Shown here: positions 36,365 to 53,986 of the stretch, piece after piece
How positions within the stretch are numbered: position 1 is the stretch's first letter
Layout of the letters: each line of letters begins with the position of its first letter
Assembly: GCF_003149145.1 (NCBI RefSeq)
Contig: NZ_QGDQ01000011.1
Span: 62,001-126,000, forward strand
DNA from: Quadrisphaera granulorum
Lineage (GTDB): Bacteria; Actinomycetota; Actinomycetes; Actinomycetales; Quadrisphaeraceae
DNA: 64,000 nucleotides
Direction of reading: 5' to 3'
Notes under the pieces: generated by a model
Database searches by the model: none
What the model saw: the letters and a program-made list of their open reading frames with translations, nothing else
What the model was told of the DNA's origin: nothing
Made by a program: the position numbers and the translations under genes

Positions 36365-36811
36365 TCAGCCCCAGCGGTCGTCGCGGCGGCGGTCCCACCG
36401 CTGCTCGAGCCGCTGCATGAAGGTGCCGGAGCGGCGAGCCCTCGGGCCGCGCGGTCCGGTGGCCGGGCGCGGCCCCGGGCGTCCGTCGGCGCCGACCACA
36501 CCGATGGGGCCGGACTCTGCGCGACCGCCCCCAGCGCCGGAGACCGCGTAGAGGATGCCGCCGAGCATCACCAGGAATGCTGCGCCACCGAGGCCGTAGA
36601 CCCAGCCGCGCTGCGAGAGCGGGATGAGGAACAAGATGGCCACGAGCGCCGCCAGGCCAGCGACGGCGATGCTGACTCCGAGGACCAGGCTCTTCTTGCC
36701 CCCACCTGCGCGGCGAGGGCCGCGCATGGTCGAAGCGAAGCGGGGGTCGTCAGAGAGCAGTTGCTGCTCCATCTGCTCCAGCAGACGCTGCTCGTGCTCA
36801 GACAGCGGCAC
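36365..36811 (-). CDS. DUF3040 membrane protein
   Basis: A 148-residue actinobacterial protein of the DUF3040 family. It opens with the family signature PLSEHEQRLLEQMEQQLLSDDPRFAS, then a Lys/Arg-rich segment, two transmembrane helices (about 45-65 and 72-90) and an Arg/Pro-rich tail. GTG 36811 is supported by AGGAGG about 6 nt upstream; a longer frame upstream has no family similarity. The function is unknown. It commonly sits near division or polymerase IV genes in actinobacteria. Confidence 0.9.
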   Translation of the reverse strand: MPLSEHEQRLLEQMEQQLLSDDPRFASTMRGPRRAGGGKKSLVLGVSIAVAGLAALVAILFLIPLSQRGWVYGLGGAAFLVMLGGILYAVSGAGGGRAESGPIGVVGADGRPGPRPATGPRGPRARRSGTFMQRLEQRWDRRRDDRWG

Positions 36812-36969
36812 TGCGACCTCCTGCGATCCTTCACTCCGGAACCACAGGATAGGTCCCGTCAAGGGGTGGGGAAAGCCGGTCTCGCCCAGCGTGGGCAAGG
36901 CAACTTTCCTGGTCCCACCTGCACCACTGTCCCCATGCGCACCAGCATGTGAACCCTGTCGGCGAGGCG

Positions 36970-38253
36970 TCAGCGCCCCTTGCCCCCCGGACGAGGGAGC
37001 AGCAGCGACGCCGGGGTCACCGCACCGCTGCCGAAGCGCCGTCCTGCCGCGTCCACAGCCCGGTCAGCCTCACGCCAGCCGCGCTCCGGTTCATCCAGAC
37101 GGAGCTGGCGGGGCACCCGATCGGCGTCGACAAGGCCCTCCACACGCACACCCACCAACCGGATGCGTGCCCGCTGCAGACCCATCGCCGCCCACAGGGC
37201 CGCGGCGGCGGCGTAGACGTCGCGGCCAGAGTCGGTCGCCTCGCGCAGGGTCCGCGAGCGCGTGACGGTGGTGAAGTCGGCGAAGCGGACGACGAGCACC
37301 ACCGTGCGGCCGACGTGCCCGTCGCGACGCAGGTGGCGGGCGACGCGCTCGGACATGCGGAGCACCTCGCGGAGCACGACCTCGGGGTCGTCGACGTCGA
37401 CGGCGAAGGTCTCCTGCGCGCCCGCGGATTTCTCGGCCACGGCCGCACTGGTCACCACGGGGCGGGGGTCGCGGCCCCAGGCCAGCTCGTGCATGGAGGA
37501 GCCGAGCGCGTCACCGAGGGCGCGGCGCAGCGTGGTCGACGGCGTATGCGCCACCTGCCCCACGGTGTGCAGGCCCAGGCGCGCGAGCGCCTCCTGGGTG
37601 CGCTCCCCTACGCCCCACAGCGCACTGGTGGGCAGCGGGTGCAGGAAGGGCACCACCTGGTCGGCGGGCACCACGAGAGCGCCGTCGGGCTTGGCGCGGC
37701 CGGAGGCGAGCTTGGCGACGGCCTTCGTCGTCGCCAGTCCCACCGAGCAGGTGATGCCCTGCTCGTCGGCCACCCTGTCGCGCAGCTCGGTGGCGATCTG
37801 TAGCGGCGTGCCCGAGCGGCGCACCGCTCCGGAGACGTCGAGGAAGGCCTCGTCCATGCCCAGCTGCTCCACCACCGGGGTCACCGAGGTGAGCAGGGCG
37901 ACGACGGCGGCCGAGACCGCGGCGTACCGGTCGGGGTCGGGCGGGAGGACGACGGCGCCCGGACAGAGGCGGCGGGCGCGGCTCATGGACATCGCCGAGT
38001 GGACGCCGGAGCGGCGTGCCTCGTACGTGGCGGAGAGGACGACGCCGCGGCTCGACCCGCCGCCGACGATCACCGGCTTGCCGCGCAGGTCGGGGCGGTC
38101 CAGGAGGGAGACGGAGGCGTAGAAGGCGTCCATGTCGACGTGGAGCACGGTGCAGCCGTCGCTCGCGTCACCGGGGGTGTGCTCGCGCAGACCGGCGACG
38201 GAGGCGGCCACGGCGGGGTCGAGCCCGGCCCGCTCGAGCTGGCGGCGGCTCAC
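36970..38253 (-). CDS. dinB: DNA polymerase IV (Y-family)
   Basis: A 427-residue translesion polymerase. Catalytic acids are intact: VDMDAFYASVSL (Asp about 40 and 42) and GMDEAFLDVSG (Asp-Glu about 134-135). ATYEARRSGVHSAMSM, ITCSVGLATTKAVAKLASGRAKPDG and the little-finger region are typical. These acids separate it from the inactive ImuB proteins that usually accompany DnaE2. GTG 38253 fits the family start; the frame upstream is noise. It lies downstream of dnaE2 in the same direction, after a 229-bp gap with a hairpin, so co-transcription is uncertain. Confidence 0.93.
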   Translation of the reverse strand: MSRRQLERAGLDPAVAASVAGLREHTPGDASDGCTVLHVDMDAFYASVSLLDRPDLRGKPVIVGGGSSRGVVLSATYEARRSGVHSAMSMSRARRLCPGAVVLPPDPDRYAAVSAAVVALLTSVTPVVEQLGMDEAFLDVSGAVRRSGTPLQIATELRDRVADEQGITCSVGLATTKAVAKLASGRAKPDGALVVPADQVVPFLHPLPTSALWGVGERTQEALARLGLHTVGQVAHTPSTTLRRALGDALGSSMHELAWGRDPRPVVTSAAVAEKSAGAQETFAVDVDDPEVVLREVLRMSERVARHLRRDGHVGRTVVLVVRFADFTTVTRSRTLREATDSGRDVYAAAAALWAAMGLQRARIRLVGVRVEGLVDADRVPRQLRLDEPERGWREADRAVDAAGRRFGSGAVTPASLLLPRPGGKGR

Positions 38254-38358
38254 GCGTCCCCACCCCCGCCTGCTCCCCTTCCCGCACTTTCCGCGGCAAG
38301 TGCGCTCCTCCCGCCGCGCGAGCTCCTGCCCCATCCCGCGGATTCCCGCCCCATGGCG

Positions 38359-38482: not shown

Positions 38483-41400
38483 TCACCACCCGGCGCTCCC
38501 GGAGCTGGAGTGCCACAGCTTGCGCGGAGCACCCCGACCAGCAGCGCCGCGCTCGGCGTCGAGGAGGTCCTCGAGGGCGTCGTCGGCGCTGCGCTCGACC
38601 GTCTGGTCGGCGCCCCCGTCGCCACTGCCGGCGGCACCGGCGGCAGAGACCCGGGTGTTGCGGGTGTCACTGCCGGGCGGGGCGATGTCGGCGTACGGCG
38701 AGAGCAGGAAGCCGCTGGCGTGCACGAACACCCGCCGGCCGCCTGCGCGCCCCCGCTCGGAGCGTGGGCGGTCTCCCACCGGCAGCCCGCTCGCCGCCGC
38801 GGCTTCCTCGGCAGCTTCCTCGGCGGCCTCCTGCGCGGCCCGCAGCGCGGCCTCGTCCTGGGCCGCGGCCTCCCGGGCGCCGGCGCCCGCGTACCGCTCG
38901 TCGTGCTGGCCCGGCCCGGAACGCCCCGCGTCGAGACCGGGCACGGCTCCGTCGTCGCGGCCCTGTCCGATGACCCGCGAAGGTGCCATGACCGGCCGGG
39001 TCGAACGGGACGCCGCCGCCCCCGCCACCGCCGCCGAGCCATACCCGGCGGCCGGCTGGCCTGCCATGACGCGGTAGACACCGTCCACCCCGTGCTCGGA
39101 CCAGACCCGCCACAGTGCGGGCATCGCCCAGGCGCCCGTGGCGCGCAGCGACACCCCGCGCGGACCGGTGCGTCGCAGCTCACCGCGCACCACGAGCAGC
39201 CACGACCCGAACACCGTCGAGGCGTACGGCCCCTGCGCGTCCTCGAAGAAGGTCGCGTCGACGGGACCGGTGGAGTCGTCCAAGGTGAGGAACACCACGC
39301 GCCGGCCAGAGCGGATCGGCGGGGTCTGCGTGGCCACCTTCACGCCCGCCACCAGCAGCTCGCTCCGCGACCTCTGCCCGCGCAGCGCACTGGAACGGAC
39401 CACACCGATCGCATCGAGCATCGGCCCGTACGCCGCCACGACGTGGTGGCTGGCGTCCAGGCCGAGCACCTCCAGCTCGGTGCGCACCTGCTCGGCGGGA
39501 GTCATCTCCGGCAGACCGGACGGCTCGACATCACCGGGGGCATCGCCGAGGTCGAGCGCCAGCTGCACGTCCTCCGAGGTGGCCAACTTCCCATGATCAC
39601 GAGGAGTTGAGCGGGACGACGACGACGAGCGGGTCCGGGCAGCACCGCGATCGAGCGCACGGGTGTGCCGGTCGAGGTCGGCGACTTGCAGCAGCAGGTC
39701 GCGCCGCGTCACCACGCCGCGGCGGCGCACCGGCGCGGTGAGCCCGAGCCCGTAGATCGCGTCCAGCGCACCCGTGAGCACGAGCCGCTCCAGCACCGGC
39801 CGAGACGGGCGAGCGCGGTTCCACAGGTCAGCGAGGGAGTGGTAGGGCTGACCAGCGACGATGCGCGCGACCTCGGCGTCGCTGATGCCCTTGACCTCGG
39901 CCAGCGACAGCCGGATGCCCCACGCCCGCCCGTCGGGCACGGCGGCGTCCAGGCGGTAGCGGCTCGCGGACGGGCCGTACCGCTCGGCGGCCTCCCGCTC
40001 GCTCCAGCGCGGCGGTTGCGCGGGCGCCGGCCGCGGCCTCTCGTCGTCGTCGTCGCGACCTGGACCGGCGGGGTACTGCTGCAGCACCGCGGGCGGCGGT
40101 TCGTCCCAGGGCGCCACGTGCTCCACCCGGTACTCCCCGGTGGAGGCGTTGACGTCGAGCGGGAGCACCGCGACGCCCATCGTGCGGGCGTCGTCGAGGA
40201 TGAGGCGCTTGGGGTACATGCCCGGGTCGTGGGTGAGCACCCCGGCGAGGAAGTGCGCCGGCCAGTGGGCCTTGAACCACGCCGACTGGTACGTGGGCAG
40301 CGCGAACGCCGCCGCGTGCGCCTTGCAGAACCCGAACGAGGCGAAGGCCGCCAGCACCTCCCAGATCCGCTGCACCTCGGCCGGCGTAAAGCCGGCCGCG
40401 AGCGCGCGGGGCCGCCACCAGGTCTCCACCTCGGCCTGCCCGTCGCGGGTGCCCAGGGCGCGGCGGACCTCGTCGGCCTGGGTGAGGCTCACCCCTGCGG
40501 TCTCGGCGACGATCTGCAGCACCTGCTCGTGGAAGACCACCACCCCGCAGGTCTGCTCCAGCGCCTTCCGCAGTCGCTCGTGGAGGTAGTCGGGCGCGCG
40601 CCAGCCCTGCCGGGCCATGAGGAACGGCGTGACCATGTCGGACTTCACCGGCCCGGGCCGGAACAGGGAGATGTCGATGACGAGGTCGGCGAAGTCTTGC
40701 GGGGCGAACTTGCCGACCAGCTCTCGCTGCCCGGGTGACTCGATCTGGAAGCACCCGAGCGTGCGGGTGGAGCGGATGAGGCGGAAGGCGTCGTCGTCGT
40801 CCAGGGGCAGGGTGTCGAGGTCGATGCGCTCCCCCGTGGTCCGCTCCACCTCGCGGGTGGCGTGGGCGAACGCCGACTGCATGCGGATGCCGAGCACGTC
40901 GAGCTTGAGCAGGCCCATGACCTCGACGTCGTCCTTGTCGAAGGAGCTCATGGGAAAGCTCGTGGCGGACGGCTGCACGGGCGTCCGGTCCAGCAGCGAC
41001 GCATCCGAGAGGAGCACCCCGCACGGGTGCAGCGCGGTGTGGCGGGGCAGCCCGTCGAGGCTCTCCACGAGGTCGTAGAGCAGGTCGAGGCGGGAGTCGG
41101 CCAGGCCCGAGGCGCGCAGTTCGGGCAGGTCGCGCAGGGCGTGGCGGACGTCGCGGGCGCGCAGGTGCGGGAAGGCCTTGGCGATGGCGTCGACCTCCCC
41201 CGGGGGCATGCCGAGGGCCGCGCCGACGTCGCGGACGGCGTGGCGGACCCGGTAGGTGTCGGTCATGGCGACGGCGGCCACGCGGTCTCCTCCGAAGCGG
41301 GCGAGCACGGCGTCGTAGACCTCGGTGCGGCGGGCGGACTCGACGTCGACGTCGATGTCGGGCAGCTCCGCCCGCGCGGTGGTGAGGAACCGCTCCATGA

Positions 41401-42835
41401 GCAGGCCGTGGGCGATCGGGTCGACCCCGGAGATGCCGAGGAGGTGGTTGACGAGGCTGCCGGCACCGGACCCGCGGGCGGCCACGCGCACGCCAAGCCT
41501 GCGGGTGAGGTCGCACACCTCGGCCACGGTGAGGAAGTACGTGGGGAAGCCGAGCGCGCCGATGACGCCCAGCTCCTCGTCCATCCGGTGTCGCACGCGC
41601 TGCAGGTGCGCGAGGGAGGCGCTCGGGTAGCGGGTGTGGACGGCTGCCTCGCAGCGGGCGCGCAGCACGGCGGCGGCGTCGTCGACGGTGCGCACCGCGG
41701 GACCGGCCACCAGCCACGGCTCGGGCAGGTGGACGGCACCGATGCCGAGGTCGGCGCGGGGGTCGAGGTGGCAGCGGGCGGCGAGCCGCTCGGTGTCGGC
41801 GAGCAGCTGGGCGGCGCCGCCGGACTGGCAGGCTCCCCGACCCGCGCCTGCGGCAGTGGCGATCCGCTCGGCGAGGTCGCGCATGGCAGCGGCCGGCTTG
41901 AGCCAGCCGTGCCCGGTGGCCCTGTCGAGGTGGCGGGAGGCCAGCGGCACGAGGCGGCGGGCAGCGTCGAGCACGTCGGCGGTGGCGGCGCCCTCGGGGC
42001 CGGCGTGGCGGACGGCGTTGGTGAGGACGGCGGGGATCCCGGCCTCGCGTGCCAGGGCCAGGGTGCGCGCGGCGTGCCCGAGGCTGGCGGGGGTGCCCTC
42101 GGGACCGAGGTGGCAGACCACCTCGAGGGCCAGGCAGCCCAGCGGCAGGGCGGAGTACCAGCGCGCCAGCAGCGCGCGAGCGAGGTCGGGGCGGCGGGCC
42201 AGCAGCGCGCGGCCGACCTCGCTGTCGGGTCCGAGCAGCACGGTGAGCGCGGGGGCTCCGGAGGCGGGGTCGACGGCGTGCTCGGCGATCTCCTCAAGGG
42301 TGGTGACGGGGGTCCCGCGCCGTCCGCCGACCGCGCTCAGCGAGCCGGGCGCCTCCCCGCGGGTGTGCGCGGCGGTGGACAGCCGGCACAGACGCGCCCA
42401 CCCGACCCCGGTCGGCAGGGGCGGGTCGCCCGGATCGGGGGTCCAGCCCGCTGCCGCGGTGAGGGAGGTGCTGGACCCGTGGGCGAGGACGACGACGCGG
42501 GGCAGCCGCGCGTCCACGGCGGCTCCGCCGCGCACCGGCGCCCTCCCCCCGCCGTGATCATGGGAGTCCGCCACCCTGCCGCGCCCGGTCCGGTGGAGGA
42601 GGTCGCTGGGCTCGACGGCGAGCTCCATCCCCAAGATCGGGACGACGCCCTCCTGGGCACACGCGATCACGTGCTTGACCGCACCGCGCAGCCCGTCGCG
42701 GTCCGTGAGAGCAAGAGCGTGCTGACCATCGGCGGCGGCTCGCTCGACGAGCGCGGCCGGAGTGTCGGTGCCGTGCTGCAAGCTCCAACCGGAGGCGACG
42801 TGCAGGTGTGTGAACGACTGCTGTGACGGCGGCAC
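38483..42835 (-). CDS. dnaE2: Error-prone DNA polymerase III alpha subunit DnaE2
   Basis: A 1450-residue C-family polymerase for damage-induced mutagenic synthesis. A PHP domain opens it (FTHLHVASGWSLQHG, ALTDRDGL). The polymerase core follows with GSGAGSLVNHLLGI, the catalytic ELPDIDVDV (Asp about 493 and 495), LKLDVLGI and SFGFCKAHAAAFALPTYQSAW. A helix-hairpin-helix region and an OB domain come next. It is about 300-400 residues longer than usual, from Arg/Ala/Glu-rich inserts near 135-200, 910-960 and 1260-1370, before the end LWHSSSGSAGW. GTG 42835 has GGGGAGGA upstream. A perfect SOS box lies 68 bp above, so it is a likely LexA target. No imuA or imuB is next to it. Confidence 0.94.
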   Translation of the reverse strand: MPPSQQSFTHLHVASGWSLQHGTDTPAALVERAAADGQHALALTDRDGLRGAVKHVIACAQEGVVPILGMELAVEPSDLLHRTGRGRVADSHDHGGGRAPVRGGAAVDARLPRVVVLAHGSSTSLTAAAGWTPDPGDPPLPTGVGWARLCRLSTAAHTRGEAPGSLSAVGGRRGTPVTTLEEIAEHAVDPASGAPALTVLLGPDSEVGRALLARRPDLARALLARWYSALPLGCLALEVVCHLGPEGTPASLGHAARTLALAREAGIPAVLTNAVRHAGPEGAATADVLDAARRLVPLASRHLDRATGHGWLKPAAAMRDLAERIATAAGAGRGACQSGGAAQLLADTERLAARCHLDPRADLGIGAVHLPEPWLVAGPAVRTVDDAAAVLRARCEAAVHTRYPSASLAHLQRVRHRMDEELGVIGALGFPTYFLTVAEVCDLTRRLGVRVAARGSGAGSLVNHLLGISGVDPIAHGLLMERFLTTARAELPDIDVDVESARRTEVYDAVLARFGGDRVAAVAMTDTYRVRHAVRDVGAALGMPPGEVDAIAKAFPHLRARDVRHALRDLPELRASGLADSRLDLLYDLVESLDGLPRHTALHPCGVLLSDASLLDRTPVQPSATSFPMSSFDKDDVEVMGLLKLDVLGIRMQSAFAHATREVERTTGERIDLDTLPLDDDDAFRLIRSTRTLGCFQIESPGQRELVGKFAPQDFADLVIDISLFRPGPVKSDMVTPFLMARQGWRAPDYLHERLRKALEQTCGVVVFHEQVLQIVAETAGVSLTQADEVRRALGTRDGQAEVETWWRPRALAAGFTPAEVQRIWEVLAAFASFGFCKAHAAAFALPTYQSAWFKAHWPAHFLAGVLTHDPGMYPKRLILDDARTMGVAVLPLDVNASTGEYRVEHVAPWDEPPPAVLQQYPAGPGRDDDDERPRPAPAQPPRWSEREAAERYGPSASRYRLDAAVPDGRAWGIRLSLAEVKGISDAEVARIVAGQPYHSLADLWNRARPSRPVLERLVLTGALDAIYGLGLTAPVRRRGVVTRRDLLLQVADLDRHTRALDRGAARTRSSSSSRSTPRDHGKLATSEDVQLALDLGDAPGDVEPSGLPEMTPAEQVRTELEVLGLDASHHVVAAYGPMLDAIGVVRSSALRGQRSRSELLVAGVKVATQTPPIRSGRRVVFLTLDDSTGPVDATFFEDAQGPYASTVFGSWLLVVRGELRRTGPRGVSLRATGAWAMPALWRVWSEHGVDGVYRVMAGQPAAGYGSAAVAGAAASRSTRPVMAPSRVIGQGRDDGAVPGLDAGRSGPGQHDERYAGAGAREAAAQDEAALRAAQEAAEEAAEEAAAASGLPVGDRPRSERGRAGGRRVFVHASGFLLSPYADIAPPGSDTRNTRVSAAGAAGSGDGGADQTVERSADDALEDLLDAERGAAGRGAPRKLWHSSSGSAGW
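39590..39601 (-). repeat. CGTGATCATGGG element inside dnaE2 (copy 3)
   Basis: The word CGTGATCATGGG occurs on the reverse strand and encodes a DHG in a Ser/Arg-rich linker of DnaE2. It is followed by GCCACCT 7 nt on, echoing the other two copies. It is a weaker match than the 42553 copy. Confidence 0.4.
42553..42577 (+). repeat. CGTGATCATGGG element inside dnaE2 (copy 2)
   Basis: CGTGATCATGGG, two variable bases, then TCCGCCACCCT matches the left arm of the 979-1031 hairpin at all but the two variable positions. It lies in a low-complexity insert of DnaE2, where it is read in reverse as part of a Gly/Asp/His-rich stretch. It looks like a dispersed intergenic element that entered the coding region. 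Confidence 0.5.
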
Positions 42836-42902: not shown

Positions 42903-42918
42903 TCGAACTTTTGTTCGA
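42903..42918. promoter_or_regulatory. SOS (LexA) box upstream of dnaE2
   Basis: TCGAACTTTTGTTCGA is a perfect match to the actinobacterial LexA consensus TCGAAC-N4-GTTCGA, a 16-bp palindrome. It is 68 bp before the dnaE2 start. On the reverse strand TAGTCT, a possible -10, lies 10 nt upstream of it, so LexA would cover the transcription start. It could also influence the divergent MFS gene. Confidence 0.9.
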
Positions 42919-43089: not shown

Positions 43090-44586
43090 ATGGCTACCGC
43101 CAGTCCCGCCGCAGCGGGCACCGCCGGCTCCATCAGGAGCTTGATCCCCGCACGCATCGACCGCCTGCGATGGGCGCCCTTCCATACCCGGATGATCATG
43201 GCGCTGGGCACCGCCTGGATTCTGGACGGGCTCGAGATCACCATCGCCGGCTCCCTCAACCCGATCCTCCAGGACAAGGCAGCACTGGGGATGTCGGTCA
43301 CCGAGACCGGCTTCATCGCCACCGTCTACCTCGTCGGCGAGGTGGTGGGAGCGCTGGTCTTCGGCCGCATCTCCGACGCCCTGGGCCGCCAGAAGCTCTT
43401 CATGCTCACCCTGGCCGTCTACCTCGGCGGCAACGCGCTCACGGCGCTGACGTGGAACGGGGAAACCTCCGGGCTGGTCTTCCTCTATCTGACGCGGTTC
43501 ATCGCCGGCGCCGGCATCGGCGGGGAATACGCCGCGATCAACTCGGCGATCGACGAGATGATGCCCGCGCCCTACCGCGGCAGGGTGGATATCGGCGTCA
43601 ACGGCACCTACTGGGCCGGCTCGATCATCGCCACCCTCGGCACCTACCTCCTGCTCGACACCATGCCAGTGAGCTGGGGCTGGCGCGTGGCGTTCCTCAT
43701 CGGCCCGGTGCTGGGCATCGTCATCATCTTCCTGCGCCGCCACCTGCCGGAGAGCCCGCGCTGGCTGCTCATGCACGGCCGCGAGCGCGAGGCCGAGGAG
43801 AACATCGCCACCATCGAGCGTCAGGTGGAGGAGAGCGGGCAGCACCTGGCCCCCGTGGACGACTCCAAGGCCATCGAGGTCCGCCCCGCCCCGGCGCAGG
43901 GGTACATCACGCTGGCGCGGGTCCTCTTCAAGACCTACCCCCAGCGCGCCACGCTCGCCGCCACGCTGATGATCACGCAGTCGTTCCTCTACAACGCGAT
44001 CTTCTTCACGTACACGACCGTGCTGACGGCGTACTACGGCGTCGCCGCGAGCAGCACCCCGCTGTACCTCATCGGGTTCGCTCTGGGGAACTTCATCGGG
44101 CCCCTCGCGCTCGGCCACCTCTTCGACACCTGGGGCCGCAAGAAGATGATCGCGGGGACCTACCTGCTCTCGGGGGCCCTCCTGGCCATCACCGCGGTGC
44201 TGTTCAACGCCGGCGTGCTCAACGCGGTCACCCAGACCATCGCCTGGGCGGTCATCTTCTTCTTCGCCTCCGCGGGGGCCAGCTCGGGCTACCTCACGGC
44301 GAGCGAGCTGTTCCCCATGGAAGTGCGCGCGCAGGCGATCGCCATCTTCTTCGCCATCGCCCAGCTCTGCGGCGCCGGCGCTCCCCTGCTCTACAGCGCG
44401 CTCATCGGCAGCCTGGACGACCCGTCGGTGACCCGGCTGTTCATCGGCTACCTCATCGGCGCCGGTGTGATGATCATCGGTGGTGTCGTCGCGGCGTTCC
44501 TCGCGGTGGACGCCGAGGGCAGGTCGCTCGAGGACGTGACGATGCCCCTGTCCGCGGTGAGCACCCGCCCTCGCGCCACCGGCTGA
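43090..44586 (+). CDS. MFS transporter, sugar-porter/metabolite:H+ symporter type
   Basis: A 498-residue membrane protein with about twelve helices. The family motifs are GRISDALGRQKLFML after helix 2, RFIAGAGIGGEYAAINSAIDEMMPAPYRGR after helix 4, and RRHLPESPRWLLMHGRE at the central loop. LGHLFDTWGRKKMI begins the second half. The PESPRWL and GGEYA pattern fits the metabolite:H+ symporter (MHS) and sugar-porter groups. The ATG has a strong GGAGGAG 6-8 nt upstream. The substrate is unknown. It diverges from dnaE2 across the SOS-box region. Confidence 0.9.
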   Translation: MATASPAAAGTAGSIRSLIPARIDRLRWAPFHTRMIMALGTAWILDGLEITIAGSLNPILQDKAALGMSVTETGFIATVYLVGEVVGALVFGRISDALGRQKLFMLTLAVYLGGNALTALTWNGETSGLVFLYLTRFIAGAGIGGEYAAINSAIDEMMPAPYRGRVDIGVNGTYWAGSIIATLGTYLLLDTMPVSWGWRVAFLIGPVLGIVIIFLRRHLPESPRWLLMHGREREAEENIATIERQVEESGQHLAPVDDSKAIEVRPAPAQGYITLARVLFKTYPQRATLAATLMITQSFLYNAIFFTYTTVLTAYYGVAASSTPLYLIGFALGNFIGPLALGHLFDTWGRKKMIAGTYLLSGALLAITAVLFNAGVLNAVTQTIAWAVIFFFASAGASSGYLTASELFPMEVRAQAIAIFFAIAQLCGAGAPLLYSALIGSLDDPSVTRLFIGYLIGAGVMIIGGVVAAFLAVDAEGRSLEDVTMPLSAVSTRPRATG

Positions 44587-44643: not shown

Positions 44644-46167
44644 TCACCTGCGGGCCTCCGGGACGGGCACGTCGGCAGGCAAGCCAGCCGCCAGCCCCAC
44701 CGACGCCTCCACCAGGCCCTGCCCCGCCGAGCTCGATCGCTGCGCCGCGGCGTAGGACGCCGACAGTCGCCGGTACTGCGGGCTCGCCAGCGCCAGCAGC
44801 GTCACCACCAGCCCCGCCGCGCCGGTGATCACGAAGACGAGGGCGATGGCGCGTGCCTGTCCGGTGCCGAACCAGCTGCCGATGGCCTGGGCGCCCGCGC
44901 CGTCACCGCTCATGAAGGGGACGACGACGAACTGCGTCAGCGGCCCCATGAGGAACGCCGTGATCGGCGCCGCGGACTGCTCCACGCTCTGCGCGAAGCC
45001 GAACACCCGCCCCTGCCGCTCGTAGGGCACCACGCGCTGGAGCACGGTCTGCTCGGCGGCCTCCGCGAACGGCATGAGCAGCATGAAGACCGCCATCGCG
45101 ACCGTCAGGCTGACGATCGAGGAGGCCAGGGGGAAGAGCATCGTGGCTGTCCACGCGGCGACATTGACGAGCAGCAGCAGGCGCACCGGCCGGCTCCCCA
45201 GGCCCCAGCGCGCCACGAGCAGACCCCCGACGATCATCAACGCGCTCAGGCCGCCCCACAGCAACCCCCACACCTGCACCGACACCAGCGACAGGCCGTA
45301 GGCGTCCATGAGTGCCATGAAGCCGCCACCGATGAAGTTGTTGAAGCAGCTGAAGGCGATGAGCGGCACGAGACCCGGCACACCGCGCACCAACCGCCAG
45401 GTGCCGCGCAGGTCGACCCCGCCAGCGCCTCCGCCAGAACCCGGTGCGGCGTCGCCAGAGCCATCGCGTGGGGTGTCTCCAGGCCCCGCGCCCCCACCTG
45501 GGTTCGCAGGCGGCGACTCTCCGGGCACGGGCTCCGGAACAGGCACGCGAGCGAGGTGGACCACCGAGGCGGTCAGCACCACCAGGGCGAGCAGCAGCAC
45601 GTGCAGCATCCCGCCGGAGGCGACCAGCACCCCGCTGATCACGGAGGTGACGAGCATCGAACTGCCGGTGACGGTGCCGACCAGGCCGTTGGCACGGTCG
45701 CGGCGGTCTTCCGGCACGAGCAGCGTCACGAGCGCAGGCAGCGCGATGGCGCGCGGGTTGCCGGCGATGACGCCCAGCATGAGCGCCACGATGAACACCC
45801 ACAGCTGCCAGGAGGTGACATCGCCGAACGCCTCGGGCGGAGTCAGCAGGTACAGCGCCAGGCAGGCGGCGTAGACACCCGCCGACACGAGCGCGGAGAC
45901 CTGCATGACGGTGCGCTTGCGGTAGTTGTCGACGAGGCTCCCGAACCAGATGCCCGTGGCCGCCGTGGCCACCACGAAGATGCCCGCGATCATGCCGGTC
46001 GCGAAGACGGACCGGGTCTCGAGGAAGACCCAGAACGTGATGGCGAACCAGACCGTGTAGTTGATGACGAAGACCACGGCGTTGCTCACCAGTAGATGGG
46101 CGAACACCCGCTGGGTGCCGTGGCGCAGGTCCAGCCGAGGCTGCGGGGCGGGGTCGGCGGTGGTCAC
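44644..46167 (-). CDS. MFS transporter, DHA3-like drug efflux type
   Basis: A 507-residue transporter with about twelve helices and a Gly/Pro-rich central loop (about 215-250). WFGSLVDNYRKRTVMQVS is the motif A equivalent between helices 2 and 3. EDRRDRANGLVGTVTG and PYERQGRVFGFAQSVEQSAAP are the paired internal motifs of DHA3-type efflux pumps such as the enterobactin or macrolide exporters. GTG 46167 is preceded by GAGGAGAA. It is convergent with the preceding MFS gene; a 57-bp gap between them has no strong hairpin. The substrate is unknown. Confidence 0.9.
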   Translation of the reverse strand: MTTADPAPQPRLDLRHGTQRVFAHLLVSNAVVFVINYTVWFAITFWVFLETRSVFATGMIAGIFVVATAATGIWFGSLVDNYRKRTVMQVSALVSAGVYAACLALYLLTPPEAFGDVTSWQLWVFIVALMLGVIAGNPRAIALPALVTLLVPEDRRDRANGLVGTVTGSSMLVTSVISGVLVASGGMLHVLLLALVVLTASVVHLARVPVPEPVPGESPPANPGGGAGPGDTPRDGSGDAAPGSGGGAGGVDLRGTWRLVRGVPGLVPLIAFSCFNNFIGGGFMALMDAYGLSLVSVQVWGLLWGGLSALMIVGGLLVARWGLGSRPVRLLLLVNVAAWTATMLFPLASSIVSLTVAMAVFMLLMPFAEAAEQTVLQRVVPYERQGRVFGFAQSVEQSAAPITAFLMGPLTQFVVVPFMSGDGAGAQAIGSWFGTGQARAIALVFVITGAAGLVVTLLALASPQYRRLSASYAAAQRSSSAGQGLVEASVGLAAGLPADVPVPEARR

Positions 46168-46247: not shown

Positions 46248-46694
46248 TCAGGAGGCGGCCAGCGGAAGCCCGCCGAGCCAGATCCGGACGTCGAGCAGCT
46301 CGGCGATCAGGGCCGTGAACGCCTCGGCCTGAGCCAGGTGCGCGTCGGCTTCGGGGCCCTGGACCGCCGGGCCGCGGCCGCTCTCGACAGCAGCCCGGCG
46401 CTCGGCAGCGGCCCCGAAGTACAAGGCCCAGCCCTCGACCTCCGGAGCGAGCGCGACCAGCGACTCCCAGACATTGACGGGGCCGCGCCTGCGGCCGCCG
46501 ACCACCTGACGGGCGGCAACGACGGCCGCGCCCGCACGCAGCGCGGCCAGGTGGGCCTCGACGAACCGGTCTGCGGGGTCGGTAGCGGCAGCGGCCAGCG
46601 AGAGTTCCGTGGCAGCGCGTTCGAGCAGCCTGACAGCGCCCGCGGGAGCGGGTGCCTGCGCGGGGCCGCGGCCGCGAGGTCTCACAGCGGCCAC
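46248..46694 (-). CDS. HEPN-like protein of the SAV_6107 type
   Basis: A 148-residue helical protein. RLLERAATELSLAAAATDPADRFVEAHLAALRAGAAVVAARQ and the later VNVWESLVALAPEVEGWALYFGA resemble the actinobacterial SAV_6107-type HEPN family. HEPN domains are four-helix bundles, some of which are RNases. The catalytic R-x4-6-H motif is not obvious here, so activity is doubtful. GTG 46694 begins one nucleotide beyond the DUF6504 stop, so the two are coupled. Their shared promoter has a LexA box. The function is unknown. Confidence 0.75.
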   Translation of the reverse strand: MAAVRPRGRGPAQAPAPAGAVRLLERAATELSLAAAATDPADRFVEAHLAALRAGAAVVAARQVVGGRRRGPVNVWESLVALAPEVEGWALYFGAAAERRAAVESGRGPAVQGPEADAHLAQAEAFTALIAELLDVRIWLGGLPLAAS

Positions 46695-46695
46695 G

Positions 46696-47085
46696 TCAGT
46701 CCACCACCCGCACGAGGCGCCAGCAGGCCTCCGCGGTGGAGCCGCTGGTGTCCGTTGACTCCGCGGGCGCACAGGCGAGCTCGAACGTGCCTGGCTCCAC
46801 CCCGAAGCCCGCGCTGGCCGCCACGCGCCACACCTGCTCGTCAGCGGCAGGGCCGGCGGCGCGGCTGCCCGGCTGGCGGACGAGCGCGCTGCTGCCACGC
46901 ACCTCGACAGCCTCTCCGCGCAGCGCCCTGGCCTCCACGCCCTGCCACCAGGGCAGACGCGAGCTCCAGGTGGCCAGCACCTCACGCACCACAAAGAGGC
47001 GGCCGCGCCAGACGAACGCCGTGGGCGCCTCCGGCTCACCCTGCTCGACCTTGACGTGCACAACCTCGTCGAACGACCGGCTCAC
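46696..47085 (-). CDS. DUF6504-family protein, likely SOS-regulated
   Basis: A 129-residue beta-rich protein: SRSFDEVVHVKVEQGEPEAPTAF, WRGRLFVVREVLATW and the C-terminal FELACAPAES...CWRLVRVVD match the DUF6504 family. These proteins are often encoded beside Y-family polymerases or DnaE2 in actinobacteria. GTG 47085 has AGGAGGAG just upstream. The position 72 bp below a perfect SOS box, in the same neighbourhood as dnaE2 and dinB, suggests a DNA-damage role, but no biochemical function is known to me. Confidence 0.75.
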   Translation of the reverse strand: MSRSFDEVVHVKVEQGEPEAPTAFVWRGRLFVVREVLATWSSRLPWWQGVEARALRGEAVEVRGSSALVRQPGSRAAGPAADEQVWRVAASAGFGVEPGTFELACAPAESTDTSGSTAEACWRLVRVVD

Positions 47086-47156
47086 AGCTCCTCCTCCTGA
47101 GGCACTGGCGGCGCGGCCCCGGGGCTTCCCCTCCCCGGTGACCGCGCCCACCGCCA

Positions 47157-47172
47157 TCGAACACGCGTTCGA
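47157..47172. promoter_or_regulatory. SOS (LexA) box upstream of DUF6504-HEPN
   Basis: TCGAACACGCGTTCGA is a perfect TCGAAC-N4-GTTCGA LexA palindrome, 72 bp before the DUF6504 start and 179 bp before the divergent CrtA-like gene. On the reverse strand TTGATG, 17 nt and TTCACT stand just upstream of it as a possible promoter. The remainder of this 265-bp gap shows nothing else. Confidence 0.85.
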
Positions 47173-52386: not shown

Positions 52387-53079
52387 CTAGCTGTACTGCC
52401 CCGGGAGGTTGGTGACGCGGGTGATCGGGGGTTGGCCGTTGAGCGCGGTGTGGGGTCGGTGGTGGTTGTAGCGATGCTGTCAGAGTTGGAACGCGGCGTT
52501 CCGGTCGGTGTCTGAGGCGTAGGCGACGGCGTAGGCCCATTCGTCGGCGTAGGTGCGGTGGTATCGCTCGACCTTCCCGTTCGTCTGTGGCCGGTAGGCA
52601 CGGGTCCGCTTGTGCGTGATGTCGTCGCCGAGGGCGGCGGCGAACGCGTTGGATCGGTAGCAGGAGCCGTTGTCGGTCAGGACCCGTTCGACGGTGATGC
52701 CGCGGGCGGTGAACCAGGCGTTCGCGCGGGTCCAGAATCCGGCTGCGGTGTCTTTCTTCTCGTCGGTGAGGATCTCGCTGTAGGCGAGGCGGCTGTGGTC
52801 GTCGACCGCGGAGTGGATGAAGTGGTAGCCGGTCACGAGTCGGTGCTGGGTCCCGCGGGCGCGCATCGCCGCGTTCTGTCGGGCCTTGCCGATCTGCCGG
52901 CCGACGACTCGATGTCCGCCGCCGTCAGGGATCTTCCCGAGCTTCTTCACGTCCACATGGACGAGCTCGCCAGGGCGTTCACGTTCGTACCGGCGGATCA
53001 CCCGCCCGGACGCGCGGTCGAGCCAGGTCAGCTTCGCGAGCCCGTATCGGGACAGCACCCGGTGGACGGTCGAGGTCGC
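52387..53079 (-). pseudogene. IS481-type transposase, truncated and with an internal stop
   Basis: The reverse strand encodes the C-terminal two thirds of an IS481-like DDE transposase. TSTVHRVLSRYGL (HTH end), RRYERERPGELVHVDVKKLGKIPDGGGHR, the integrase core VDDHSRLAYSEILTDE and VLTDNGSCYRSNAF, and KRTRAYRPQTNGKVERYHRTYADEWAYA are clear. An in-frame TGA stands at 52480-52482, where relatives have Trp. The remaining HRYNHHRPHTALNGQPPI continues in frame to 52387. The N-terminus is missing and is replaced by a transporter fragment. It is therefore a dead insertion-sequence remnant. No terminal inverted repeats were identified. Confidence 0.85.
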
Positions 53080-53328
53080 GACGATCGGGGCGGCGAGCAG
53101 CATCAGCACGGCGGTGATGCCGACCTGGACCGTCGCGACCGGGACCGCGCCGGGCCCTCGCGGCGTGACGAAGCGGCGCACGTAGACGAAGGACACGCCG
53201 TAGCAGGCTGTCGCTCCTAGGCAGGCGAGCTGCCCGAGCAGGCCGCCGCGCGCCGACTCCTGCCACGGTGCGAGCAGCACCACCGCCCCGGCGAAGCCGA
53301 GCGCCAGTCCAGCGGCCCGGGACCGGGT
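53080..53328 (-). pseudogene. EamA/DMT-family transporter fragment
   Basis: About 83 codons, read in the same frame as the transposase remnant, encode GLALGFAGAVVLLAPW, GLLGQLACLGATACYGVSFVYVRRFV and VPVATVQVGITAVLMLLAAP. This is the junction between the two EamA domains of a drug/metabolite exporter (normally about 300 residues). Both ends are missing: the transposase is joined directly downstream, and the upstream 170 bp are not recognisable. It may be what is left of a transporter once divergent from the SRPBCC-MarR operon. Confidence 0.7.
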
Positions 53329-53491
53329 GCCTCGGATGTGAGCCCGTGTCGAGACATGAGCTCGACGGGCGGGTGCGAACCCCGCGCCCGACTCAATGGT
53401 GTGCGCGCGCAGGAAGGCGCGTGCGAGGGCGGCTGCACGGCATCTCGGAGCCGCCTCGACGACGCCGGTCCCATCGAGAGCCGCGTGCTGC

Positions 53492-53521
53492 TTGACATCG
53501 ATGTTACGACACCAATATTGT
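53492..53521 (+). promoter_or_regulatory. Strong promoter of the SRPBCC-marR operon
   Basis: TTGACA (53492-53497), an 18-nt spacer and TATTGT (53516-53521) make the best sigma-70-type promoter in the window. It lies about 30 nt before the SRPBCC start, in a locally AT-rich stretch. The palindrome at 53500-53533 overlaps its spacer and -10. Confidence 0.75.
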
Positions 53522-53533
53522 TGTCGTAACATC
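53500..53533. promoter_or_regulatory. 34-bp palindrome, likely MarR operator
   Basis: Two 17-nt arms meet with no loop and differ at only one base pair: GATGTTACGACAC and its complement around a central CCAATATTG-type core. It covers the promoter spacer and -10. The two-gene operon below encodes a MarR protein, so autorepression is the simplest reading. Confidence 0.75.
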
Positions 53534-53551
53534 AAATGGAGGGCGGTTCCG

Positions 53552-53986
53552 ATGTACGCATTCGAGGAGACCGGCGTGATCGAGGGCACCGTGGAACAGG
53601 TCTGGGCGGTCGCGACAGACGTCGCCCGGTGGAGCGAGTGGGATCCGCACGAGGAGGCGTCGCGCTTGGACGGCGAGTTCGTGGCCGGGACCACCGGCTG
53701 GGTCAAGCCGAAGGGGGCACCGGCGGGCCCGTTCACGATCACGGCCGTCCGCCCCGAGGAGTCATGGTCGAGTCAGGCGGCGATCCCGTTCGGGCGCCTC
53801 GTCGGCACGCGCCGGTACGAGCAGATCGACGCCAACCACGTGCGACTCGTCGAGCGGGTGGAGGTGCACGGTCCGTTCGCTCCGCTCTTCCGGTTGATCT
53901 GGGAGAAGGGGATGCGACGGGACATGCCCTTGACGTTCGCCGCCCTGGAACGAGAGGCATGCAACCGTTTCGCGCAGCATGGATGA
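53552..53986 (+). CDS. SRPBCC-family (START/Bet v1-like) protein
   Basis: A 144-residue protein of the polyketide cyclase/SRPBCC fold, a hydrophobic-cavity ligand binder. It opens with the usual FEETGVIEGTVEQVWAVATDVARWSEWDP, then FTITAVRPEESWSSQAAIPFGRL and the C-terminal helix WEKGMRRDMPLTFAALEREA. GGAGGG precedes the ATG by 8 nt. It overlaps the marR start by 8 nt, so the two are co-translated. It may bind, or detoxify, the MarR ligand. The function is not known. Confidence 0.85.
   Translation: MYAFEETGVIEGTVEQVWAVATDVARWSEWDPHEEASRLDGEFVAGTTGWVKPKGAPAGPFTITAVRPEESWSSQAAIPFGRLVGTRRYEQIDANHVRLVERVEVHGPFAPLFRLIWEKGMRRDMPLTFAALEREACNRFAQHG

Follow-up and report, generated by a model that had tools for sequence, protein, structure and literature searches.

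The stretch analysed here (the window) comprises 64,000 nucleotides of Quadrisphaera granulorum (NCBI RefSeq assembly GCF_003149145.1, contig NZ_QGDQ01000011.1, positions 62,001 to 126,000 of the forward strand). It contains a pair of genes, encoding a DUF6504 protein and a HEPN_SAV_6107 protein, behind an exact LexA (SOS) box. LexA control of the pair is strongly supported, as far as sequence allows. We consider it probable, with reservations set out below, that the pair forms the damage-inducible front end of a mutasome operon, with the HEPN protein as a non-catalytic accessory of SOS translesion synthesis. The part not found in print is the role of the HEPN gene, which accompanies translesion cassettes of different kinds under LexA control. 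The features of the pair and the two boxes are as follows.

47157..47172, no strand: exact LexA box TCGAACACGCGTTCGA of the DUF6504-HEPN pair, a palindrome conserved 5' of DUF6504 in the order
47088..47098, minus strand: purine-rich, putative ribosome-binding stretch AGGAGGAGGAG before the DUF6504 start
46696..47085, minus strand: DUF6504 protein, predicted stand-alone ImuB-C domain, 129 aa (PF20114, 85.2 bits, E 4.2e-24)
46248..46694, minus strand: HEPN_SAV_6107 protein, start about 46694 (PF18726, 90 bits, E 1.6e-25, above the curated cut-off)
42903..42918, no strand: second exact LexA box, 5' of dnaE2

LexA boxes in the Quadrisphaera genome

The original prediction described a perfect SOS palindrome before a tightly coupled gene pair and a second one at dnaE2. 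Both were confirmed. The first box lies 71 bases from the GTG of DUF6504, and the second lies 67 bases 5' of the likeliest dnaE2 start (GTG 42835). The DUF6504 stop is separated by 1 base from an in-frame HEPN GTG at 46694, with an alternative GTG at 46685. An exact search of the whole 4,884,413-base genome for TCGAACN4GTTCGA returned two sites, both inside the window, and no sites for the reversed consensus used as a control. At one mismatch or fewer, 19 LexA sites were found versus 15 for the reversed control, so only exact sites are informative in this GC-rich genome. With an exact promoter box that is kept in relatives (below), the pair is a predicted member of the LexA regulon, and its induction by damage in Q. 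granulorum would be expected.

DUF6504 as a stand-alone ImuB-C domain

DUF6504 had been taken to have no assigned function. This is corrected here: on profile evidence it is a stand-alone ImuB-C domain, known from papers of 2013, 2019 and 2026. The protein scored 85.2 bits against PF20114, versus a curated cut-off of 24.2. Among 14 control genomes PF20114 matched in one, that of Caulobacter. Nine proteobacterial ImuB-type proteins, chosen as neighbours of annotated error-prone DNA polymerases, were scanned with the profile, which lay at the C-terminus in eight (three above the curated cut-off; six at E <0.01; two weak, at E 0.045 and 0.1). The ninth, from Caballeronia, was without a match. One of these proteins carries the NCBI annotation 'DUF6504 family protein'. 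The structure model of DUF6504 was mainly beta (mean predicted local distance difference test score, pLDDT, 79.7) and without a clear solved relative; the ImuB-C fold is reported as a beta-barrel.

Passages of PMC3765255 (2013) and PMC6511836 (2019) describe ImuB-C both as a domain and in stand-alone form. The sections of PMC12926913 (2026) drawn on here describe a group of DnaE2B proteins accompanied by a seemingly active PolY, stand-alone ImuB-C and RecA, with such complexes only in Actinobacteria. This DnaE2-[ImuB-C]-PolY-RecA module is the fourth DnaE2B group there (example Tessaracoccus lapidicaptus), and its described features include a RecA-NT motif in PolY and DnaE2B membership by phylogeny. 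As the module is already published, the DUF6504 half of the present finding was known under another name; the word DUF6504 was not found in any paper in our literature search. The window shares with the module a stand-alone ImuB-C, a DnaE2-type polymerase, an apparently active Y-family polymerase and an actinobacterial host, and its genes are clustered likewise, though interrupted by two major facilitator superfamily (MFS) genes. It differs in that these MFS genes part the pair from dnaE2 and in that HEPN is a regular member; in the same sections of PMC12926913 neither HEPN (0 occurrences) nor LexA boxes of the cluster are mentioned. As in the ImuA-ImuB-DnaE2 mutasome, the system is LexA-controlled and combines DnaE2 with an ImuB-C domain. 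Unlike in that mutasome, ImuB-C is a separate protein and the Y-family polymerase looks active.

Operon arrangement in the order

The genes flanking the pair in the window are as follows.

44644..46167, minus strand: MFS transporter gene between HEPN and dnaE2 (PF07690)
43090..44586, plus strand: second MFS transporter gene between HEPN and dnaE2 (PF00083/PF07690)
38483..42835, minus strand: dnaE2-type polymerase, putatively DnaE2B in the published scheme, start likewise putative (PHP, DNA_pol3_alpha, finger, HHH_6)
36970..38334, minus strand: dinB, Y-family polymerase (IMS, IMS_C), true start possibly internal (in-frame GTG at 38253 and 38211)
36365..36898, minus strand: DUF3040 gene, conserved flank of the cluster (PF11239)

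The genome encodes two DNA_pol3_alpha proteins; the dnaE2-type protein is the second, and its context suggests that it belongs to group B. There are also two IMS proteins, DinB among them. Both are DinB/Pol IV-like and neither was recognised as an ImuB; no genome-wide search for ImuA was made. The dinB gene had been called active-type. Its IMS and IMS_C domains and the motifs HVDMDAFYAS and GMDEAF are in keeping with this, and the motifs presumably contain the catalytic acidic residues. Elsewhere in the window (52480-53742), an integrase-core (rve) gene has an amine-oxidase-like gene on one side and a MarR-type regulator on the other.

DUF6504 was found in 47 of 149 genomes of the order, at 48 places, all of which were read. 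The usual operon was box-DUF6504-HEPN-dnaE2-dinB. Co-oriented DUF6504, HEPN, DnaE2B and DinB were complete at 36 of the 48 places, and HEPN was present at 44. Family f6 (L076, L079, L080, L081) lacked HEPN and had DUF6504 directly 5' of dnaE2; L075 had DUF6504, HEPN and DinB, with DnaE2 absent. Apart from L078 (next), the remaining places were cut by contig or stretch ends, which affect the arrangement labels of L045, L050, L052, L055, L063 and L083. A second HEPN and DUF6504 pair in reversed order was seen at L078 (8201-9395, genome G135), with no box (best match 8/12) and no polymerase genes found nearby.

Boxes were scored from 300 bases upstream to the DUF6504 start. The best match was 12/12 at 39 places, 11/12 at six, 10/12 at two and 8/12 at one (L078). 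The box is thus conserved upstream of the pair in relatives; loss of the box in relatives that keep the pair had been named as a result that would overturn the prediction.

In the window's genus the gap between HEPN and dnaE2 was peculiar, at 2.4 to 4.3 kb in the window, L045, L046 and L050, and was filled in the window by the two MFS genes. DUF6504 and HEPN remained together in this genus despite the separation of dnaE2. In L069 and L071, from the same genus, HEPN and dnaE2 were adjacent, yet a second exact box stood between them. From these loci, the box of the pair is most simply an old operon box, dnaE2 having gained its own. The box had been described as the pair's 'own'; it is present, and is the pair's own only through the intervening genes in this genus, being an operon box elsewhere in the order.

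The HEPN protein

The window HEPN belongs to the same Pfam family (PF18726) as the HEPN-M (SAV_6107) subfamily of PMC3710099 (2013), whose table entry there gives no function, partners or SOS link. Its model was confident (pLDDT 91.9) and the predicted fold was clearly HEPN, with HEPN toxins among the structural neighbours.

This fold would suit a damage-induced RNase or DNA-acting effector, as had been suggested. A helix-2 R-x4-H was likewise present in 127 of 170 HEPN_SAV_6107 domains (R29 in 159, H34 in 140), counted independently of the peptide pattern used to scan named genomes, which contained A[HQ]L and biased alignment A2 towards His34. The Rx4-6H of active HEPN proteins sits in the C-terminal part of the domain. 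Such a motif was found within the last 50 domain residues in just 23 of the 170, so the C-terminal motif of catalytic HEPNs is not conserved in this set, and residue 34 was Tyr in 23 and Gln in six. The part of the survey PMC3710099 that covers the SAV_6107 subfamily lists no conserved catalytic motif for it. An effector that cleaves is thus unsupported, since the motif is reported absent and the C-terminal form is infrequent, and we regard it as improbable. LexA control and the error-prone context of the original prediction were upheld by sequence; the cleaving effector was not.

The pair might instead be a toxin-antitoxin system like MntA-HepT, being two small, tightly coupled genes, one with toxins among its structural neighbours. 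Unlike with HepT of the HEPN-MNT systems, an MNT partner is absent and the canonical motif is not at its usual place; DUF6504 is a predicted ImuB-C, not a nucleotidyltransferase. In a 345-genome sample of the class, HEPN_SAV_6107 occurred in 223 genomes and DUF6504 in 139, so many HEPN genes are without a DUF6504 partner. PADLOC gave no match at E 0.1, and a single Kineosporia HEPN query gave no phage record, its sole match in the plasmid set being a chromosome filed there. The toxin-antitoxin explanation is therefore very improbable, and a non-catalytic accessory of translesion synthesis remains the preferred reading of HEPN.

HEPN loci across the class

From among the matches listed, 61 DUF6504/HEPN pairs were compared, genomes of the window's own order being left out. 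In all 48 of the 48 genomes that belong to families other than f35 (17 families), the two genes were neighbours in the usual order. Beyond the class the HEPN family was rare and faint: 29 of 296 genomes of the phylum matched, and the 12 of these that are not members of the class scored 21.9 to 32.6 bits (five over the cut-off).

The genes around HEPN were classified at 153 loci. ImuB-C upstream with DnaE2B and DinB downstream was found in 65, and DUF3040 lay 3' of HEPN in 63 of these 65. DinB alone followed HEPN in 18. In eight, HEPN was followed by ImuA' and ImuB together with another type of DnaE2, DinB being present or absent. This type is provisionally labelled DnaE2A on the strength of its ImuA' and ImuB neighbours and its low DnaE2B-profile score rather than of a tree. 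No polymerase gene was recognised near HEPN (within 9 kb or the stretch read) in 47, often at the same site. The other 15 had other arrangements, several of them cut by contig ends. Further loci, from named genomes, showed the same range: the ImuB-C arrangement in Kineosporia (L180, L209), Arsenicicoccus (L197) and Ornithinimicrobium (L218); box-HEPN-DinB in Cellulomonas (e.g. L182), Isoptericola (L194) and Luteimicrobium (L179); HEPN-ImuA'-ImuB-DnaE2 in Stackebrandtia (L244); and HEPN with no polymerase at the site in Nonomuraea (L251), Actinomadura (L236) and Jiangella (L257). MetF and DUF3040 flanked HEPN in many arrangements.

In the 500 bases upstream of the operon, 136 of the 153 loci had a LexA match of 11/12 or better, as did 207 of all 229 loci scored (164 of the 207 exact). 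Over the 229 loci the reversed consensus gave 0, and 100 shuffled palindromes gave a mean of 0.17 (maximum 4). Exact boxes at 513, 610 and 565 bases upstream in L140, L340 and L341 lay beyond the range and were counted as misses. The 153-locus set is the cleaner, yet non-random; the 229 include named-genome loci that partly repeat genomes, four of 80 such loci with less than 300 bases upstream having been dropped. Sixty loci (L288-L347) were hand-picked from HEPN places with Streptomyces-like genomes (f37, name inferred) deliberately excluded. The latter were counted apart (18 rows, 17 genomes), except L138, which is among the 153 as a miss.

Two 11/12 boxes about 40 bases apart were seen in L186, L188, L221, L227, L230, L245, L250, L251 and L254; the double-box genera were Herbidospora, Acrocarpospora, Thermocatellispora, Microbispora, Streptosporangium and Nonomuraea. 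Metagenome-assembled genome (MAG) contigs titled Bifidobacterium breve (L240, L256) carried a full DUF6504-HEPN-DnaE2B-DinB set and are possibly misnamed. In L145, L146 and L037 DUF6504 stood directly 5' of DnaE2 with HEPN absent; the best upstream LexA match was only 10/12, with a first half of GTGAAC or GAGAAC. In family f35, stand-alone DUF6504 genes with 11/12 or 12/12 LexA boxes were seen at L158-L161, and no DnaE2, DinB or HEPN was recognised beside them in the 18 kb read.

Corynebacterium glutamicum cg2381

C. glutamicum, one of the control genomes, carries a profile match to the HEPN_SAV_6107 family. In seven Corynebacterium-like genomes (g176, name inferred) HEPN lay directly before DUF3040, with MetF 1.0 to 1.7 kb upstream in four. 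The best box upstream of HEPN was 11/12 in three and 10/12 in four, and no polymerase cassette was found beside HEPN in these loci (L268-L274). This gene order fits the neighbourhood of cg2381, which we take to lie between mraZ (cg2378) and metF (cg2383); no paper linking cg2383 with metF turned up in the literature search. Judged by gene order, cg2381 is probably the HEPN_SAV_6107 orthologue. The regulon data of PMC5055667 list cg2381 as a LexA regulon member with an M of 3.86 after ciprofloxacin, equal to recA. If the identity holds, damage induction of the HEPN family has already been measured, and the relevant part of PMC5055667 offers no interpretation of it.

Literature searches found no paper combining HEPN and DnaE2. 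Four papers combining the HEPN domain, LexA and the SOS response concerned other systems, judged by their titles. The word HEPN was absent from the main text of the S. venezuelae LexA study PMC9380542, as far as that text was available.

Proposed role

In the proposed mechanism LexA would repress the promoter 5' of DUF6504, and RecA-stimulated LexA cleavage would free it. DUF6504 would supply ImuB-C, the small beta domain modelled in ImuB to dock DnaE2, in the form of a protein of its own that acts together with DnaE2B and a catalytically active DinB. HEPN would be a non-catalytic helical accessory protein, co-induced with the SOS translesion machinery, and probably binds the Y-family polymerase or the assembled complex; a physical partnership with the polymerase, and docking, would be implied. 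More tentatively, and in our judgement short of an even chance, HEPN_SAV_6107 may be a general SOS translesion subunit, a non-catalytic LexA-released adaptor serving interchangeable ImuB-C/DnaE2B/DinB, ImuA'-ImuB-DnaE2A and DinB-alone modules.

Several observations weigh against the accessory reading. PF20114 matched none of three actinobacterial ImuBs scanned, and DUF6504 resembled the tails of such ImuBs only weakly when profiles were compared. HEPN and DUF6504 were apart in 13 of 13 pairs in family f35, among the matches listed. To these are added the 47 loci without a recognised polymerase and the common helix-2 R-x4-H, with which HEPN may conceivably have a non-canonical activity. Among the Streptomyces-like loci, 0 of 18 rows had a box above 10/12. 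In the Mycobacteriaceae-like family f22 a box was present in 11 of 20 loci. HEPN was found in 114 of 121 genomes of that family; it was missing in all six sampled genomes of its genus g66, taken for Mycobacterium. Separately, nine of the 18 Streptomyces-like rows (eight of 17 genomes; L092, L099, L102, L106, L110, L112, L114, L116, L138) had, 216 to 227 bases upstream, a degenerate site (CCGAACNNNNGATCGA type) that matches at 10/12 and is similar to tCGAAC-N4-GNNCGa, the looser LexA motif of S. venezuelae given in the consulted text of PMC9380542.

The main rival, and a serious one, is conserved synteny (metF, HEPN, cassette, methyltransferase, DUF3040). By this account HEPN is LexA-controlled but has an unrelated function (it might slow growth or division, for example) and occupies an old position flanked by metF and DUF3040; translesion cassettes that make no contact with it are retained, or arrive, downstream of its SOS promoter. 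The box was kept upstream of HEPN in 35 of the 47 loci without a recognised polymerase, which fits this account, as do the flanking MetF and DUF3040 and the separation of HEPN from ImuB-C in f35. Against it, the neighbouring cassettes belong to several translesion types, with HEPN co-oriented and first or second in them, and DUF6504-HEPN is unsplit in the window's genus although dnaE2 is separated. We judge separate roles less likely, and favour HEPN as a translesion accessory.

Significance

Damage-induced mutagenesis via DnaE2 is a route of adaptation in actinobacteria, and in the literature examined the make-up of the DnaE2 machinery outside the mycobacterial ImuA'-ImuB-DnaE2 complex rests on computation. 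If the assignment of cg2381 holds, a strongly damage-induced 'conserved hypothetical protein' would gain an identity and a hypothesis. The HEPN gene, LexA-controlled in most loci examined, precedes several kinds of polymerase cassette, and its product is a candidate subunit or regulator.
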